From assembly GCF_036345015.1 (NCBI RefSeq), contig NZ_CP084098.1:1501326-1565325 (forward strand): a stretch of 64,000 nucleotides of DNA. Direction: 5' to 3'. Numbering within the stretch: position 1 is the stretch's first letter; each line of letters opens with the position of its first letter. Source of the DNA: Cyanobacterium sp. Dongsha4 (GTDB lineage: Bacteria > Cyanobacteriota > Cyanobacteriia > Cyanobacteriales > Cyanobacteriaceae). Made by a program: the position numbers and the translations under genes. Below are positions 3,239-14,963 of the stretch, piece by piece. A model generated the notes under the pieces. That model ran no database searches. It was given only the letters and a program-made list of their open reading frames with translations, and was not told the origin of the DNA.

Positions 3239-6200
3239 TTAATGATTAATTGTTAGAAAAATATTGAGTAATGAATTAATATTTTTATTCATTTTTTCTA
3301 AATTAAAGTTATCAAAATTAGTTCTAATTTCTTTTATTTTTATACTTATTTCACTATTTTGTGCCATTGTTTCGACTTTTTCTAATTTCTTTTGTGCCTC
3401 CATTAAGTCTATTTCCGATACTTTTATAATCTCAATTAATAATTCTTTTATTTGTGCATAGTCAATGTTTTGATTTTTGACTATATTTACAGATGACTGT
3501 GGAGGTTTATTTTCTAATTCTTGCAAGGAATTGATGACTAAGTCAAAAGATAGATAAAATTTTTCTGCTAAAGATGGTATATTCTTAATGTCTTCTTGTT
3601 TTAATGCTGACTCTAATTCTTGGGCAATATTAAAAAGATTTTCAGCACCGATATTTCCTGCTGTTCCTTTGATAGAATGAACTATCTCTCTAGCTTTACT
3701 ATAATCATTTCTTGCAATAGCAGAGATTATCAATTCTTTTTTGACAAAATTATGGGAATTGAATTGTTTTAATAATCTTAGATATAACTCCTTATTGCCC
3801 ACAAGACGTTGTAAAGCGTTTTCAATATTAATCTCTGCCAAGGGAGGAATATATACATCTTCATTTTGGTTACACTTAAAAGTTGATGAAGATTTATTGG
3901 TTTCTTCCGATTCTATTTTATTTTGAGGTAGCCACTGCATTAGAGTTTCTTTTAGTTGATTAGGGTTAATAGGTTTGGTAATATGATCATTCATACCTGC
4001 TTTGAGACTTAATTCTTTATCTCCTGTCATGGCATGGGCAGTCATGGCAATAATGGGAAGTTGTTGGAAGTATTCCCCTTCTAGTTTTCTAATTCTTTTT
4101 GTGGCTTCTAATCCATCCATTTCAGGCATAGATATATCCATTAATATAGCGTCATAATTTTGAGTCATAATTTTTTCTAGGGCTTCTAAGCCGTTGTTTG
4201 CTATATCTATATCAATTTCTCGTAACAATTCCACTACAATTTCTTGATTAATTTCATTGTCTTCTACTAGCAAAAGGTGGCAATTCTGGAAACATTGAAA
4301 AGAAGGATAGGAATTAACCATGACACACGAAGTATCTTTGAGATAACTTTTGCGATTAAATACTTCGAGAATGGCATTAAAGAGACTTGATTTGGTAACT
4401 GGTTTACTAAGAAAATGTTTTAACTCTTGTTTTTTCTTTAACTCCTCTAGTTCACTAATATGGTGGGCTGTTATCATTAAAATTGGTGGGATATTCGCAA
4501 TATAGGGATTAGCCTTAATAGCTTGGATAGTTTCAATGCCATTGAGGTAGGGCATTTGCCAATCGATAATAATTAATTTATAGTCTTTTTCTCCTTTTTC
4601 TAATTCCTTAATGGCTTCTAATCCTGAGTTAACTGCTTTCACAGCAAAGGAAAAGGATTCTAAAAAGCGAGTAATTACCTGACGAGTTATGGAATTGTCA
4701 TCAACTACTAAAATGGGATTAGAAGTTAAGTGAGACAGATTACGAGGAATAAGATTAGATGTAGAAGCACCTCTGTTGAGATTGATGGTGAAATGAAACT
4801 TACTACCCTTATTTTCTTGACTTTCTGCCCAAATTTTTCCTCCCATCATCTCAATTAAACGTCGGCTAATGACTAATCCTAAACCAGTGCCGCCATATTT
4901 ACGAGTAATGGAATTGTCTGCTTGAGAAAAAGGTTTGAATAGAAGAGAGAGTTTATCTTTAGCAATACCAACTCCCGTATCTTCTACACAAAAATATAGG
5001 GTGATTTTTTCCTTGGCAATTTTTTCCTGTCGCACTTTTACGACAATTTGACCTTTTTCGGTAAATTTGATAGCGTTATTAATTAAATTAGTCAGGATTT
5101 GGGATAGACGGAGAGAATCTCCCAAAAAACTACAATCTAAATGGTCATCTATATCAAAAACTAATTCTAGTCCTTTTTCTTGAATTTTTGGATGCAGTAA
5201 ATTTGCAACATCTGTTAGTATATTGTCCAATAGAAAATTATTTGTTTCTAAATCCAGTTTTCCTGCTTCTATTTTGGAAAAGTCGAGAATATCGTTGATT
5301 ATAAGCAATAAAGACTCACAGGCTTTTTGAATTTTGATTAAATAACTTTTTTGCTTTTCTTTTAATTCCTCTTTTAATGCTAAATGGGTAAAGCCAAGAA
5401 TGGCATTCATGGGGGTGCGAATTTCATGACTCATACTGGCTAAAAACTCGCTTTTGGCTTTGTTAGCAGAATCTGCTTCTTCTTTTGCTAGTTCTAATTC
5501 TTGTTGTACTCGTTTGATTTCAGAAATATCACGAGAAATAGCTAAAACCATCTTATTTTTTTGGCTAGGAATAGCACTAAGGGAAACTAAGCAGGGGAAA
5601 ATAGTGCCGTCTTTTTTTTGTAAACTCCACTCGAAAAAACATCCTCCATTTTTGGCGGCATGGCGAATATATTTAAAAGCTAAATTATCTGATAATTCAC
5701 CGTTGGGCTGATGTTGGGGGGAAAAGTCAGGGGGAGTTTTACCGATAAATTCTGTGCGATTAATGCAGTCATGCAATCTGATGGAGGCTTCATTACAGTC
5801 TATATATTGCCCTGTTTTAGCATCAATTAAGGATAAAGCATCATGGGAAGATTCAAATAATGTTCTATATCTTGTTTCACTTTGTTGTAACTTGTTATAT
5901 AGGGCTTCTCTTTCTTTTACTTCTTCCATTAAAACTTGATTGGTGGCGAATAAAGCCTCTTGGGTTTCTTTGAGGGCTGTTTCTGATTTTTTCCTTGCAA
6001 TGGCATTACTAAAAAGTTTTCCTGTTAACTGTAGTAAGTTGGTTTCTCCTTGATTCCATTCATGATGATTTTCTGCAGAGATTGCGGTTAAAAAACCGAC
6101 TACTCGCCGAGAAAATTCGATGGGTAAAGCAATAAAAGATTTGAGGTTAAGTTGCTCAAATAACATTCTCTCATTAACGGCTAACTCTGGTAAATCCTCT

Positions 6201-9061
6201 GCCGAGTTAATCATAACTATCCATTTGGTTTGCAGTTGATTAACTAGCCATGAAATTACACGGGTGGATATGTGCCATTCTCTCAAATCTTGATGAATTA
6301 AGGATGATTGACTTTGATGGGATAAACAAAAAGTTTCATTTCCTTTATCAAACTCAAAAATGGTAATTTGCTCTACTTTCAAGAATAAAGCAATAGCTGT
6401 TAACGCATCATTAATATACTCATCAACTTTTTCGGCTTCTACCATGAATAGACTGGTAGAAATATCCGAGAGTAATCTTTCTATTTCATTAAGATAGCGC
6501 AATGCGATCGCTTTTTCTTCGGCATTTTCTTTCGCTTCTTCCAATTCAAGGGTGCGTTGTTTTACGTTGGCTTCTAACTGTTGATTAAATTCTTCTAATT
6601 GCAATCTGGCTTTTCTTCTTTCTAATTCTCCTGAAGCACTAGAGGCAAATATCTGGAAAATTTCTCGATTAATGGATGTGTTGGGGATAGACTTGCTACT
6701 TAGGGCAACTAAACAGCCAATGGGTTTTTGATTGCTGTCAAATAAGCCCATACCCATATAGGTTTGAGCATGAATGGTTTGCAGTAGTAAGCTATGAGGA
6801 TATTCTCTTTGAATGTTGTCAGAATATAGACAGAAGCTAGGATTTTCACTATATATAACTTGTTGACAGGGAGTATTGTTGACTTGGTAACTGAAGTTTG
6901 CTTGGAATTCTTGATTATGATAACAAACCAATGTGGTGGCAAAATCGGGTATTTCGGGATGTATTTCTGAGAGAAAAACAACGTCTGCTTGTAAAACTTC
7001 GGCTAGGTATTTTACTAGAGATTGAAAAAAAGTTTCTTCTGATTTAAAGGAAACGGCTTTTGCTATATGACGAATGGCTAATTCAACACGTTTGCGATCG
7101 CATATATTCATCACAACACCTGTGACTTTTTTCAAGTTTCCCCCGCCGTCATACTCCATAATGCCTCTATCTAATACCCAAAGATAGTCATCATTTTTGG
7201 TTTGAAGTCGATATTCAAGGGAGAAAAAACGCTCAGGAATAGGATTAGGGCTTAATTCAGCATTAACTATAGCCAAATCATCAGGATGAATTCTCTCAAG
7301 CCAGAAAGTTTCTGATATGCCAATTTCTTCGGGTAAATAACCTAATAACTCTGTATATGCACCATCCCAAATAATCTCATGATTAGTTACATCATGCTCA
7401 TAAACTATTTCTCCTAAAGTTTTAACAAGAGTTTCATTTCTGCGTTTTAGTGCTTGTTTTTCACTTTCTATTTCTCTTTTTTTAGTAACATCCCTTGCTG
7501 AGTAAAGAATAATTCCTTCTTCTTGGGGAAATAATTTGACATTGAGTAATAAATAATGCTCCCGATTAAATTTATCTTTTACTACTATTTCTATATTGTT
7601 TATTTCTTCTTGTTTTTCCAAAGTATCTAAATCATAAATATTTTCTCCTAGCAATTGTTTGACATTCTTCATGGCTTCCACTTCTTCCCAAGAATATTCA
7701 AAAATAAAATGCACATTAGGACAAATAAAAGTAAGATTGCCTTGTTTATCACTTAAAAAAACAGTATCAGAGATATTATTCAATATCATGCGGTGTAATT
7801 TTTCTGACTCTTCCAAAGCTAATTGAGCAAATTTACTCTCACTTATATCCCTTGCACAACCAACAATAAATAATTCTTTCGTTAAAGTATCGTTGATAGG
7901 ATAGCCTCTATCTTCAATCCAGCGAATATCACCATTGGGGCGAATAATGCGAAATTCCTCATGATAAATTCCTTTATCAACTACTTCTGCAAAGGCTTTT
8001 TCAACTCTGGCGCGATCTTCAGGATGGACACTTTCTAACCAAATGCTATAATTTTGATATAATTCCTCACAAGAATGTTGCCAAATATCTTCAAATGCGT
8101 TACTGACATATAATGTTTGCTTTTGATACCAATTCATCATCCAAAACACATCATTAATAGTTTCGGTGATAAGTTCCAATTTTTGCTTACTTTCTTTTAT
8201 CTCTTGTTCTGTTTGTTTCCTTGAGGTTATATTATCTTCTATACCTCTAAAACCGAGTAATTTTCCCTCTTGGTTAAAAATAGGTAATCCTTTAGAATCT
8301 AACCAAATATATTGTTGTATAGGCAATAAATAATAGCGTTTAATACGGTGAAAAAACCGAGGATTTTTTAATAAGTCATCCCAAGTTTTTTGCATTTCTT
8401 CTCTATCTGATTCTTCAATAATTTCAAAAATACTTTTTCCGATTAATTGTTCTGATTTTAAGCCTAAATGCTCTTCAATTTTAGGACTTACATAAGTAAA
8501 AATTCCTTCCAAATTAACTTCCCAAAACCACCCATCAATTAATTGAATTACACTATTAAAACGTTTTTCACACTCTGTTAAAATACTCTTTTCTTTCTCA
8601 TATTTTCCTGTTTTACTATTACATTCTTTTTCTTTTATTCCTTCATTAAGGATAGATGAATTTAGTTTGATATTTTTACAAGTTGACAACTCTTGCCAAT
8701 AGGATATTTTAGTTAATATTTCTTCCTTACATAAAGGCTCAGTCAAAAATTCGATCGCACCTAATTTAAAAGCGAGTTCCTTATTCTGGTAATCATCACT
8801 TATAAATGCTATAAAAACTTGCTCATTTTCTAAGAAAAAATTAGAAGAATTTATTTTATTTTTTAAATCAAAAAAAGACTCAATAAAGCTAGTAAAAATA
8901 ATAGGAATATCATTAATTTCTTGTAGATAATTACAAATATCTTGCTCAGTGTGAAAATGTAAATAAGTAATATTATTTTCCTCAAGAATTACCCTCAAAG
9001 AATGCAAAGAATACTGGTAATTATCTAAAATTAAGACGGGATGATCACTAGAGTGAGACAT
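3239..9061 (-). CDS. Giant hybrid sensor histidine kinase (pseudo-REC, PAS x5, GAF x2, HisKA, HATPase, REC x2, HPt)
   Basis: Single-chain phosphorelay protein of 1940 residues. Rough domain order: a degenerate receiver-like domain (1-120) lacking the usual phosphoacceptor, four PAS domains (about 160-665), two GAF domains (about 670-820 and 870-1040), a fifth PAS (about 1065-1190), HisKA with phosphoacceptor His1212 in SMSHEIRTPMNAILG, an HATPase with GTGLGL, two receivers with Asp1500 (IIIDWQMP) and Asp1642 (LMDISMPEMDG), and an HPt domain with His1795 (VHSIKGTAG). The C-terminal HPt closes a His-Asp-His relay. No transmembrane segment is evident, so it is probably cytoplasmic. No dedicated output regulator lies nearby. 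The signal cannot be inferred from the PAS and GAF domains alone. Confidence 0.93.
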   Translation of the reverse strand: MSHSSDHPVLILDNYQYSLHSLRVILEENNITYLHFHTEQDICNYLQEINDIPIIFTSFIESFFDLKNKINSSNFFLENEQVFIAFISDDYQNKELAFKLGAIEFLTEPLCKEEILTKISYWQELSTCKNIKLNSSILNEGIKEKECNSKTGKYEKEKSILTECEKRFNSVIQLIDGWFWEVNLEGIFTYVSPKIEEHLGLKSEQLIGKSIFEIIEESDREEMQKTWDDLLKNPRFFHRIKRYYLLPIQQYIWLDSKGLPIFNQEGKLLGFRGIEDNITSRKQTEQEIKESKQKLELITETINDVFWMMNWYQKQTLYVSNAFEDIWQHSCEELYQNYSIWLESVHPEDRARVEKAFAEVVDKGIYHEEFRIIRPNGDIRWIEDRGYPINDTLTKELFIVGCARDISESKFAQLALEESEKLHRMILNNISDTVFLSDKQGNLTFICPNVHFIFEYSWEEVEAMKNVKQLLGENIYDLDTLEKQEEINNIEIVVKDKFNREHYLLLNVKLFPQEEGIILYSARDVTKKREIESEKQALKRRNETLVKTLGEIVYEHDVTNHEIIWDGAYTELLGYLPEEIGISETFWLERIHPDDLAIVNAELSPNPIPERFFSLEYRLQTKNDDYLWVLDRGIMEYDGGGNLKKVTGVVMNICDRKRVELAIRHIAKAVSFKSEETFFQSLVKYLAEVLQADVVFLSEIHPEIPDFATTLVCYHNQEFQANFSYQVNNTPCQQVIYSENPSFCLYSDNIQREYPHSLLLQTIHAQTYMGMGLFDSNQKPIGCLVALSSKSIPNTSINREIFQIFASSASGELERRKARLQLEEFNQQLEANVKQRTLELEEAKENAEEKAIALRYLNEIERLLSDISTSLFMVEAEKVDEYINDALTAIALFLKVEQITIFEFDKGNETFCLSHQSQSSLIHQDLREWHISTRVISWLVNQLQTKWIVMINSAEDLPELAVNERMLFEQLNLKSFIALPIEFSRRVVGFLTAISAENHHEWNQGETNLLQLTGKLFSNAIARKKSETALKETQEALFATNQVLMEEVKEREALYNKLQQSETRYRTLFESSHDALSLIDAKTGQYIDCNEASIRLHDCINRTEFIGKTPPDFSPQHQPNGELSDNLAFKYIRHAAKNGGCFFEWSLQKKDGTIFPCLVSLSAIPSQKNKMVLAISRDISEIKRVQQELELAKEEADSANKAKSEFLASMSHEIRTPMNAILGFTHLALKEELKEKQKSYLIKIQKACESLLLIINDILDFSKIEAGKLDLETNNFLLDNILTDVANLLHPKIQEKGLELVFDIDDHLDCSFLGDSLRLSQILTNLINNAIKFTEKGQIVVKVRQEKIAKEKITLYFCVEDTGVGIAKDKLSLLFKPFSQADNSITRKYGGTGLGLVISRRLIEMMGGKIWAESQENKGSKFHFTINLNRGASTSNLIPRNLSHLTSNPILVVDDNSITRQVITRFLESFSFAVKAVNSGLEAIKELEKGEKDYKLIIIDWQMPYLNGIETIQAIKANPYIANIPPILMITAHHISELEELKKKQELKHFLSKPVTKSSLFNAILEVFNRKSYLKDTSCVMVNSYPSFQCFQNCHLLLVEDNEINQEIVVELLREIDIDIANNGLEALEKIMTQNYDAILMDISMPEMDGLEATKRIRKLEGEYFQQLPIIAMTAHAMTGDKELSLKAGMNDHITKPINPNQLKETLMQWLPQNKIESEETNKSSSTFKCNQNEDVYIPPLAEINIENALQRLVGNKELYLRLLKQFNSHNFVKKELIISAIARNDYSKAREIVHSIKGTAGNIGAENLFNIAQELESALKQEDIKNIPSLAEKFYLSFDLVINSLQELENKPPQSSVNIVKNQNIDYAQIKELLIEIIKVSEIDLMEAQKKLEKVETMAQNSEISIKIKEIRTNFDNFNLEKMNKNINSLLNIFLTINH

Positions 9062-12653: not shown

Positions 12654-14963
12654 TCAATCTTCTAAGCAACAATGCTGATTAATCACTTGATTGATTTTTT
12701 TGAGAAAGATGCGAGGCTGTAAAGGTTTGAGCAAATATTCATCAATACCTGAGCTTACTAAATTTTCCCACTCATTTCCCTGTATTTGGTCTTTTATGAC
12801 TATTAGATAGAGGGGATAATCGGCTTGAGATTTGATATTTTCGGCAATAGTTAAATAAGTATCTTGCTCTTGTTGTAAAATTACGATCGCAGGATTAATT
12901 AAGTTAATTCTACTAATGGCTTCTTGAACATCTACTAGCCAAATTACTTGATAATCGGCGGCGGTTAATAACTCACACAGAAATGTACCGACTTCTTCAT
13001 CATCACAAATAATTGCAATGGTTTTATTAATTTTAGATTTATTGATAATATTCTGATTACATTCATTTTTCAGACTATTTTTTTGTTCGTAATTGGGTAA
13101 AAAAACGGTGAAAGTTGAACCACTTCCAATCACAGATTCTACTTCAATCATTCCTCCGTGTAATTCCACCAAATGCTTAGTCAATGCTAATCCTAAACCT
13201 GTGCCAGAATAACTGCGACTACGATAATTTTCTAGCTGTTGAAATTCAGTAAATAATAAGGGAATTTGTTTTTTGTCAATACCAATGCCTGTATCTTCTA
13301 CTTGAAAAATGGCTTGATGTTGATTTCTCATGACTCTAATGATAACTTGTCCTCCACTAGGAGTAAATTTAATGGCATTATCTACCAGATTTAATAATAT
13401 TTGATATAGTCTTTCTTCATCAGCATAAAATACATCTAATTCTGGAGCTACTTGATAATCTAGTCTTACTTTAATGCCTTGATTTTTAGCTATTTCTAAA
13501 CCTGAAATATAAACAAATTTGCTCAAATTTTCTAAAGAAATTCTTTCAATATATAATAGAGATTTCCCTGCTTCTAAGTCAGCAAAATCGAGCATATTAT
13601 TAATTAATTGAAGCAGTTTTCTACCACTATCTTGAATAATTTGTAAGTATCTAACTTGTTTTTCTGGGGATAAATTCTCTCTTTTTTTCTCTTTTGACCA
13701 GTGTAGTAGTGTGCCTGACAAACCAATAATACAAGTTAAAGGAGTTCTCAATTCATGGCTAATACTTCCTAAAAATTCTGTTTTGGATTGATGGGCTATT
13801 TGTGCCACTACTAAGGCATCTTGTAATTGTTTTGCTTTTTTTTCTATTTGTTGTTCTAGTAAATTTTTTTGTTCTTCTAGTTTTTGATAGGAGTTATATT
13901 GATATATAGCTAAAGATAAATATTCGGCAATATTTTTGAGAAATTTAATTTCACTATTTTTCCATTTTCTAATAGTAAAACATTGGTGGGCAATTAATAA
14001 ACCCCATAGTTGATTTTTGACAATAATAGGAATAACAACTTTTGCTTTTACTCCTAATTTTTCCATCATCATTTTTAAGCAAATATCTGTGTTTGATTCA
14101 TGGATATTATCAATAACTAAAGTATATCCTTCTAAATATTTTTTTTGAAATTCTTGGTTATTATGAAAGCAACTTTCTTCATGAAAATTTAAAACGGAGG
14201 GAATTACATTGGATGCTTTTGCTTCGTAGGTTACGGTGTCAATAAAACTAATATTATTTTCTGATTTTTCTCTGACGGGGACATTTATTTGATATACTAA
14301 AAGGCGATCGAGTTGTAATAATGACTGCACTTGTTCAATGGTCATTTTAACGATAATTAATGGGTCTAAATCCTGCTGAATTTGTTGAGTTACTTGTCTA
14401 ATAATTCTTTCTTGGGCTATCTTATTTCTTAAAATAACTTCTATGGGTTGACTTTGATAATGTTCGTTAACATAACTTTCTTGTAACTCTAAAGGTTCTG
14501 TGAGAATTTTGAGCAGGGAAAAAATAAAATTTTGTTTAATAATATGATAATTATTTTTATGTTGAAGAATAGTTTTGATATTAATTAATTCTTCGTTGGA
14601 AATAGATAATTCTGACTGACTAATTTCCAAAAAGTCTAATATTTCTTCTGTTTCTAAAGTGATAGTTATTTGATAATATAGCTCATTAATTTGTTTTTCA
14701 ACTATTAAAAGACACTGCAATTCTTCGGATATAAAGAGTTGAAAGCTATGAAATTTTTGCCCTTTATTTCTAATATTTTTGGCATTAGTTAAATTTTCTT
14801 CATTCAAGTACATTACACCATGACAATTCTCTTTTACTAATTCTCGCCAAAGATGAGATATTTTAGTAAATATAGGATGAGAGATGATGATGCTAATTAA
14901 GGATTGATTAGAAATAAACATTAATAAGAATTTGTGCCAAGAATTTTGTTTGACCAGCCTCAA
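12654..14963 (-). CDS. Hybrid histidine kinase with a cyanobacteriochrome-like GAF domain and a degenerate receiver
   Basis: Protein of 769 residues: a divergent N-terminal region (1-180), a GAF domain (about 183-355), a coiled linker, HisKA with His403 (SISHELRTPLT), an HATPase with GTGLGL, and a C-terminal receiver-like domain (about 650-765). The GAF domain is of the phytochrome/cyanobacteriochrome type (QLWGLLIAHQC). It has a cysteine at the canonical bilin position (Cys295, in DICLKMMMEKLGVKAK) and a second in an ESCF motif (Cys265), 30 residues upstream, as in DXCF blue/green photoreceptors. The receiver reads NPAIVILQQE where an Asp is expected, so it probably cannot be phosphorylated. 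Bilin binding is inferred. Confidence 0.85.
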   Translation of the reverse strand: MRLVKQNSWHKFLLMFISNQSLISIIISHPIFTKISHLWRELVKENCHGVMYLNEENLTNAKNIRNKGQKFHSFQLFISEELQCLLIVEKQINELYYQITITLETEEILDFLEISQSELSISNEELINIKTILQHKNNYHIIKQNFIFSLLKILTEPLELQESYVNEHYQSQPIEVILRNKIAQERIIRQVTQQIQQDLDPLIIVKMTIEQVQSLLQLDRLLVYQINVPVREKSENNISFIDTVTYEAKASNVIPSVLNFHEESCFHNNQEFQKKYLEGYTLVIDNIHESNTDICLKMMMEKLGVKAKVVIPIIVKNQLWGLLIAHQCFTIRKWKNSEIKFLKNIAEYLSLAIYQYNSYQKLEEQKNLLEQQIEKKAKQLQDALVVAQIAHQSKTEFLGSISHELRTPLTCIIGLSGTLLHWSKEKKRENLSPEKQVRYLQIIQDSGRKLLQLINNMLDFADLEAGKSLLYIERISLENLSKFVYISGLEIAKNQGIKVRLDYQVAPELDVFYADEERLYQILLNLVDNAIKFTPSGGQVIIRVMRNQHQAIFQVEDTGIGIDKKQIPLLFTEFQQLENYRSRSYSGTGLGLALTKHLVELHGGMIEVESVIGSGSTFTVFLPNYEQKNSLKNECNQNIINKSKINKTIAIICDDEEVGTFLCELLTAADYQVIWLVDVQEAISRINLINPAIVILQQEQDTYLTIAENIKSQADYPLYLIVIKDQIQGNEWENLVSSGIDEYLLKPLQPRIFLKKINQVINQHCCLED

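Follow-up and report, generated by a model that had tools for sequence, protein, structure and literature searches.

The question raised by this locus is whether a hybrid histidine kinase with two cysteines in its GAF domain represents a new photoreceptor or a protein that is already known. The gene lies in the window, which is the whole stretch of DNA that was analysed (64,000 nucleotides of Cyanobacterium sp. Dongsha4), and a first-pass annotation had described its product as an unrecognised cyanobacteriochrome with an unusual output route. Sequence comparisons identify it as cikA (circadian input kinase A), the gene of a kinase through which environmental signals reach the circadian clock of cyanobacteria, and not as an unrecognised hybrid kinase; the corrected annotation is that of a clock component and not of an orphan photoreceptor. 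We hold with good confidence that this cikA encodes a probably photoactive dual-cysteine GAF domain and that light and redox state would both serve as inputs. The features to which the argument refers are the following:

12654-14963, minus strand: cikA open reading frame as listed, 769 residues, TTG start
14919-14921, minus strand: alternative and more likely ATG start, residue 15 of the 769-residue reading, suggested by ortholog open frames
14451-14921, minus strand: N-terminal CikA region, residues 15-171, fast-diverging
13905-14357, minus strand: GAF domain, residues 203-353, from Pfam, with PDB matches to cyanobacteriochromes and RcaE
14166-14177, minus strand: ESCF motif, residues 263-266, with the codon of Cys265, the DXCF-type second cysteine, at 14169-14171
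14079-14081, minus strand: codon of Cys295, at the canonical bilin-binding cysteine position by alignment, followed by Leu296
14040-14042, minus strand: codon of Lys308, from the family alignment
13566-13787, minus strand: HisKA domain, residues 393-466, with the codon of the phospho-acceptor His403 at 13755-13757
13092-13421, minus strand: HATPase_c domain, residues 515-624, with the conserved Asn529, Asp557 and glycine residues present
12693-13016, minus strand: pseudo-receiver, residues 650-757, with Gln697 (12873-12875) at the acceptor position and the family-conserved Cys663 and Trp675

The description of the product as a hybrid kinase with a cyanobacteriochrome-like GAF domain holds, with the GAF (52.9 bits, cut-off 22.4), HisKA and HATPase_c domains all above their Pfam cut-offs and the Response_reg match at residues 650-757 remaining under its own (15.7 bits, cut-off 30.2). 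The kinase motifs are intact and the receiver is degenerate. None of the best 25 of 75 matching NCBIfam families passed its cut-off, the top one being HrmK with 225.9 bits against a cut-off of 725, and an AlphaFold2 model built from two sequences had a mean pLDDT of 38.8. Translation may begin at the ATG of 14919-14921 and not at the listed TTG, because in six of the 13 same-family orthologs (L011-L016) the frame first opens at the methionine corresponding to residue 15 or one codon earlier; the other seven have longer open frames and are not decisive for the start.

Several lines of comparison bear on the identity of the protein. Its architecture is that of CikA, with an N-terminal region, one GAF domain, HisKA, HATPase_c and a C-terminal pseudo-receiver in about 750 residues. 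A profile made from 12 orthologous pseudo-receiver domains and searched against 177,635 PDB sequences gave as its top matches the CikA structures 2J48 (9.5e-21) and 5JYU/5JYV (1.4e-20), with ordinary receivers following at 1.1e-13, about seven orders of magnitude behind. The comparison rows could be tied to named proteins, with L187 being 100% identical to a 111-residue stretch of 2J48 (Synechococcus elongatus CikA) and L198 to a 108-residue stretch of 5JYU (Thermosynechococcus CikA). L134 comes from a close Synechocystis species, because the Cph1 of its genome is nearly identical to PDB 2VEA, with 13 differences in 485 residues as counted by eye.

In a tree of GAF domains comprising 53 rows (31 hand-picked from 128 CikA rows and 22 others), made by a quick method without bootstrap and holding three long rows, all outside CikA, the CikA rows including that of the window fell on one side of a branch with an SH-aLRT value of 100. 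This side also holds the S. elongatus, Thermosynechococcus and close-Synechocystis rows, with TePixJ, Tlr0924 and RcaE lying apart. At E<=1e-60, matches to the protein were found in 53 of 60 genomes, its own included with a single match, and in 48 of the 53 the best match lay in a frame of CikA size; in the other five (G016, G025, G034, G035, G052) it lay in a hybrid kinase of more than 1000 residues. A wider search yielded matches at the same threshold in 275 of 388 genomes, some of them due to proteins other than CikA. A scan of genome contigs for histidine-kinase motifs gave 80 loci, of which a single one, L039 (37% identical over residues 100-757), was assigned to CikA.

These comparisons also bear on the proposal that the protein is a true DXCF blue/green cyanobacteriochrome, of the TePixJ or Tlr0924 kind, joined to a hybrid kinase and having no relation to the clock. 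The coincidence of its cysteine positions with those of TePixJ and Tlr0924 speaks for such a receptor. A TePixJ-type photoreceptor unrelated to the clock was nevertheless rejected on the pseudo-receiver match to CikA and on the GAF tree, in which the domain belongs to the CikA group and not with TePixJ; together with the CikA-sized best matches in 48 of the 60 genomes, they make this explanation scarcely credible.

The absence of a phospho-accepting aspartate from the C-terminal receiver, as first noticed, is borne out, with Gln697 standing at the acceptor position. A receiver without this residue is the known state of the CikA pseudo-receiver, as described in PMC6378743 and PMC12632262, and therefore the missing aspartate does not point to a novel route of output, contrary to what had been supposed. 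The acceptor position is itself variable, with an aspartate in 50 of the 117 CikA rows that have a receiver (L037 and L134 among them), so the prefix "pseudo" does not apply uniformly across the family. Trp675 is conserved in 116 of these 117 rows and Cys663 in 113. In S. elongatus CikA, the alpha1-beta2 region of the pseudo-receiver is described as the quinone- and KaiB-binding face (PMC12632262), and we read the Cys663/Trp675 stretch, by its place in the domain, as probably corresponding to that region. In 11 further rows (L139, L174, L176, L177, L179, L182, L193, L200, L205, L213 and L022) the frame ends after the kinase and no pseudo-receiver follows; eight of them come from one family (f33). 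A split gene is possible in these 11 rows, and L022, from an assembly that is 63% complete, may be cut by a contig end.

The position of the two GAF cysteines was compared with known cyanobacteriochromes in a MAFFT alignment comprising the window protein, 11 CikA rows, TePixJ, Tlr0924, two further Thermosynechococcus GAF domains, RcaE (8K9O), 6OAP and 6BHN. The names Tlr0924, SesB and SesC for the Thermosynechococcus rows are our assignment from gene positions and lengths, and the TePixJ row is identical to PDB 3VV4 over the domain except in the opening residues of the alignment. The ESCF motif with Cys265 and the other cysteine, Cys295, 30 residues further on (28 in TePixJ) were confirmed in the 769-residue frame, and both stand at bilin-cysteine columns: Cys265 falls on the cysteine of the TePixJ motif DPCF and Cys295 on that of TECH, with the same columns occupied in Tlr0924. 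The alignment with TePixJ and Tlr0924 that had been called for thus places Cys295 on the canonical cysteine and, as far as a sequence alignment reaches, not off the chromophore helix. Cys295 lies within DICLKMM, and VKAKVVIPI and QLWGLLIAHQC are also present in the domain. The match of the cysteines is not a matter of chance, because both are present in 109 of the 128 CikA rows, including that of the window.

The designation of the domain as DXCF-like stands in part. A second cysteine at the DXCF position is present together with the canonical one, and the DXCF aspartate and a grouping with TePixJ are lacking. The window motif is E-x-C-F, with Glu263, and not D-x-C-F; after the canonical cysteine, the seven cyanobacteriochrome rows have His four times, Tyr twice and Leu once (in RcaE), while the window protein has Leu296. 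Strict DXCF membership therefore fails, the aspartate being a glutamate here and unconserved in CikA, leucine replacing His or Tyr after the cysteine and the GAF domain lying outside the TePixJ group. TePixJ and Tlr0924 share both cysteine columns with the window protein, and are unlike it in the aspartate of DPCF, in the His (TePixJ) or Tyr (Tlr0924) that follows the canonical cysteine and in their separate place in the GAF tree. RcaE (7CKV, 8K9O) resembles it in having Cys-Leu at the canonical site and a lysine 13 residues past the cysteine, and differs in having a valine in place of the second cysteine at the DXCF position. The leucine and lysine of RcaE at those columns are presumably part of its protochromic triad, a protonation switch.

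The nearest characterised protein to the window CikA is the Synechocystis homologue SyCikA (Slr1969, Hik24), the GAF domain of which has been reported to be a violet/yellow photoreceptor (Narikawa 2008, as cited in PMC11372060, PMC3546692 and PMC5578081). The label "unrecognised" is hence withdrawn, the protein being CikA and the GAF domain of its homologue Slr1969 an already published photoreceptor. As represented by L134, which belongs to a close Synechocystis species and not to PCC 6803 itself, SyCikA is alignable with the window protein over the GAF domain, the kinase and the pseudo-receiver, and has both cysteines with leucine after the canonical one. Identity between L134 and the window protein is 36.5% in the GAF domain and 34.5% in the pseudo-receiver, against 17.7% in the N-terminal region. 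L134 has the motif N-D-C-F where the window has E-S-C-F, and an aspartate at the acceptor position where the window has glutamine. Thermosynechococcus CikA (5JYU/5JYV) is like the window protein in both cysteines and the following leucine, with the motif D-D-C-W, and in the Thermosynechococcus group a tryptophan replaces Lys308. S. elongatus PCC 7942 CikA (2J48), an ortholog by its pseudo-receiver and GAF group, likewise has a pseudo-receiver without the aspartate, and unlike the window protein lacks both GAF cysteines. Its GAF domain is described as being without the chromophore-binding Cys and His, and chromophore binding as not having been observed in vivo (PMC6378743).

The distribution of the cysteines was followed in the 128 CikA rows, which consist of 30 loci of the 60-genome search (the window included), 18 of the 388-genome search and 80 further stretches, and which represent part of the matches, weaker ones and many listed ones being left out. 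Both cysteines are present in 109 rows and neither in 13, with six rows having only one (three each way). The association of Cys265 with Cys295 has a Fisher p of 1.4e-12 when kinship is ignored. On a tree from which the GAF columns had been excluded, 10 independent pairs showed six changes in the same way, none opposite and four unchanged (median p 0.03, range 0.016-0.125). At a minimum, Cys265 has changed 12 times and Cys295 11 times on this tree, counts that do not distinguish gain from loss; from the presence of both cysteines in the cyanobacteriochrome outgroups, we infer that the changes are losses. Among the titles and abstract openings searched, none described the two cysteines of CikA as being lost together, which is weak evidence of absence, most subscription journals being outside that scope.

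Other positions of the domain were compared with this pattern. After the canonical cysteine, the 112 rows that have it show Leu (96), Phe (11) or Met (5), and never His. The position of the DXCF aspartate is free, being occupied in the 109 dual-cysteine rows by Glu (33), Ala (17) or Asp (14), with the remaining 45 rows having other residues or gaps. A covariation scan over the 229 columns in which a single residue accounts for 60-97% of the rows, that of Cys295 included (Fisher test, kinship ignored), ranked Cys265 and Lys308 as the best partners of Cys295, followed by Ile324, Leu154, Phe266 and Leu296, all except Leu154 lying within the GAF stretch. Lys308 is found in 96 of the 109 dual-cysteine rows against one of the 13 rows with neither cysteine; after correction for phylogeny, its link to Cys295 was not significant (p 0.25, with 3.2 same, 0 opposite and 4.8 unchanged of 8), nor was that to Cys265 (p 0.375). 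The pattern of joint loss and the combination of Cys, Leu and Lys add modestly to the known picture of CikA, and the window protein is an ordinary but well-preserved member of the family.

Two further explanations of the cysteines have to be weighed against this pattern. One of them, that the pair forms a disulphide or a metal/redox site and not a bilin site, would account for the two residues varying together, as expected of any two-cysteine site, and would suit a protein known to be redox-linked (PMC11372060, PMC6378743). It is nonetheless very unlikely, given that both residues occupy the columns of the bilin cysteines in cyanobacteriochrome GAF domains of solved structure, that F266, L296 and K308 tend to accompany them and that chromophore binding has been reported for SyCikA (PMC11372060). 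The other holds that the GAF domain no longer senses light, with the cysteines kept and, on the model of S. elongatus, a redox or quinone input entering by way of the pseudo-receiver. S. elongatus CikA does work without either cysteine, the DXCF aspartate is unconserved and 19 of the 128 rows are missing one cysteine or both. Both are retained, on the other side, in the eight nearest relatives (L010-L017) as well as in the 109 rows, their joint rather than separate loss suggests that the pair is in use where present, and the genome has pcyA, one bilin reductase gene exceeding the cut-off of the NCBIfam phycocyanobilin:ferredoxin oxidoreductase model (366.4 bits, cut-off 206). A light-blind CikA is thus an improbable, though less remote, explanation.

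The window CikA probably senses light directly, as has been reported for that of Synechocystis. In the mechanism that we favour, phycocyanobilin would attach through Cys295, and Cys265 would make and break a second thioether, giving a violet- or blue-absorbing dark state and a photoproduct of longer wavelength, as reported for SyCikA. The state of the GAF domain would be relayed along a helix to the kinase core, which would act on RpaA, chiefly as a phosphatase; CikA has been described as both an input and an output factor with phosphatase activity on RpaA (PMC5520375). The pseudo-receiver, working without phosphate, would dock KaiB and bind quinones, and in this way the kinase would be tied to redox state and to the phase of the clock. 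We propose that the light input of the GAF domain and the redox input of the pseudo-receiver would thus be two inputs in one protein. The light step need not serve the clock, since both cysteines are missing from the most thoroughly studied CikA, that of S. elongatus, which reportedly responds to redox state and not to light (PMC11372060, PMC6378743).

It has been stated as an open question (PMC11372060) whether CikA has an identical role in Synechocystis, in which it is a chromophore-binding protein, and in Synechococcus, in which it is not a direct light sensor; the orthologs that keep, half lose or fully lose the cysteines constitute a test set for this question. In L122 (G390, 2.8 Mb) both GAF cysteines are replaced, by Arg and Ser, and in its congeners (genus code g60) L123 (G418, 3.0 Mb) and L120 (G385, 4.8 Mb) both are kept; L122 and these congeners offer a natural pair for a comparison of photoactivity. 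A broader and more tentative reading, which we consider possible but would not favour, is that the dual-cysteine light-sensing GAF domain may be both ancestral and usual in CikA. It would form a separate lineage of cyanobacteriochromes, in which a DXCF-type second cysteine occurs together with an RcaE-like Leu/Lys pair, and would have been lost as a unit several times, S. elongatus included. The light-blind, redox-only CikA of the model clock would then be the exception, and most cyanobacteria would set their clock by a direct violet/blue photoreceptor.

The genome also contains other clock genes. kaiA, kaiB and kaiC lie side by side at C1:277563-279863, with KaiB and KaiC above their NCBIfam cut-offs and KaiA, for which no NCBIfam model was listed, above its Pfam cut-off. 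The cut-off of NF006800, a model named "histidine kinase" which we take to be that of SasA, is exceeded by a SasA-like kinase whose N-terminal domain resembles KaiB. Away from kaiABC there are a second tandem-ATPase KaiC-like frame (506 residues, C1:3126790-3128169) and a second KaiB-like frame (92 residues, C1:630455-630697); additional kaiB and kaiC copies have been described in Synechocystis (PMC11372060). Within the window, on the minus strand like cikA, a hybrid kinase of 1940 residues is encoded at 3239-9061, which contains four PAS stretches together with a GAF match (30.5 bits); between it and cikA lie a frame of 225 residues, murJ and a gene for a TrmL-like methyltransferase.
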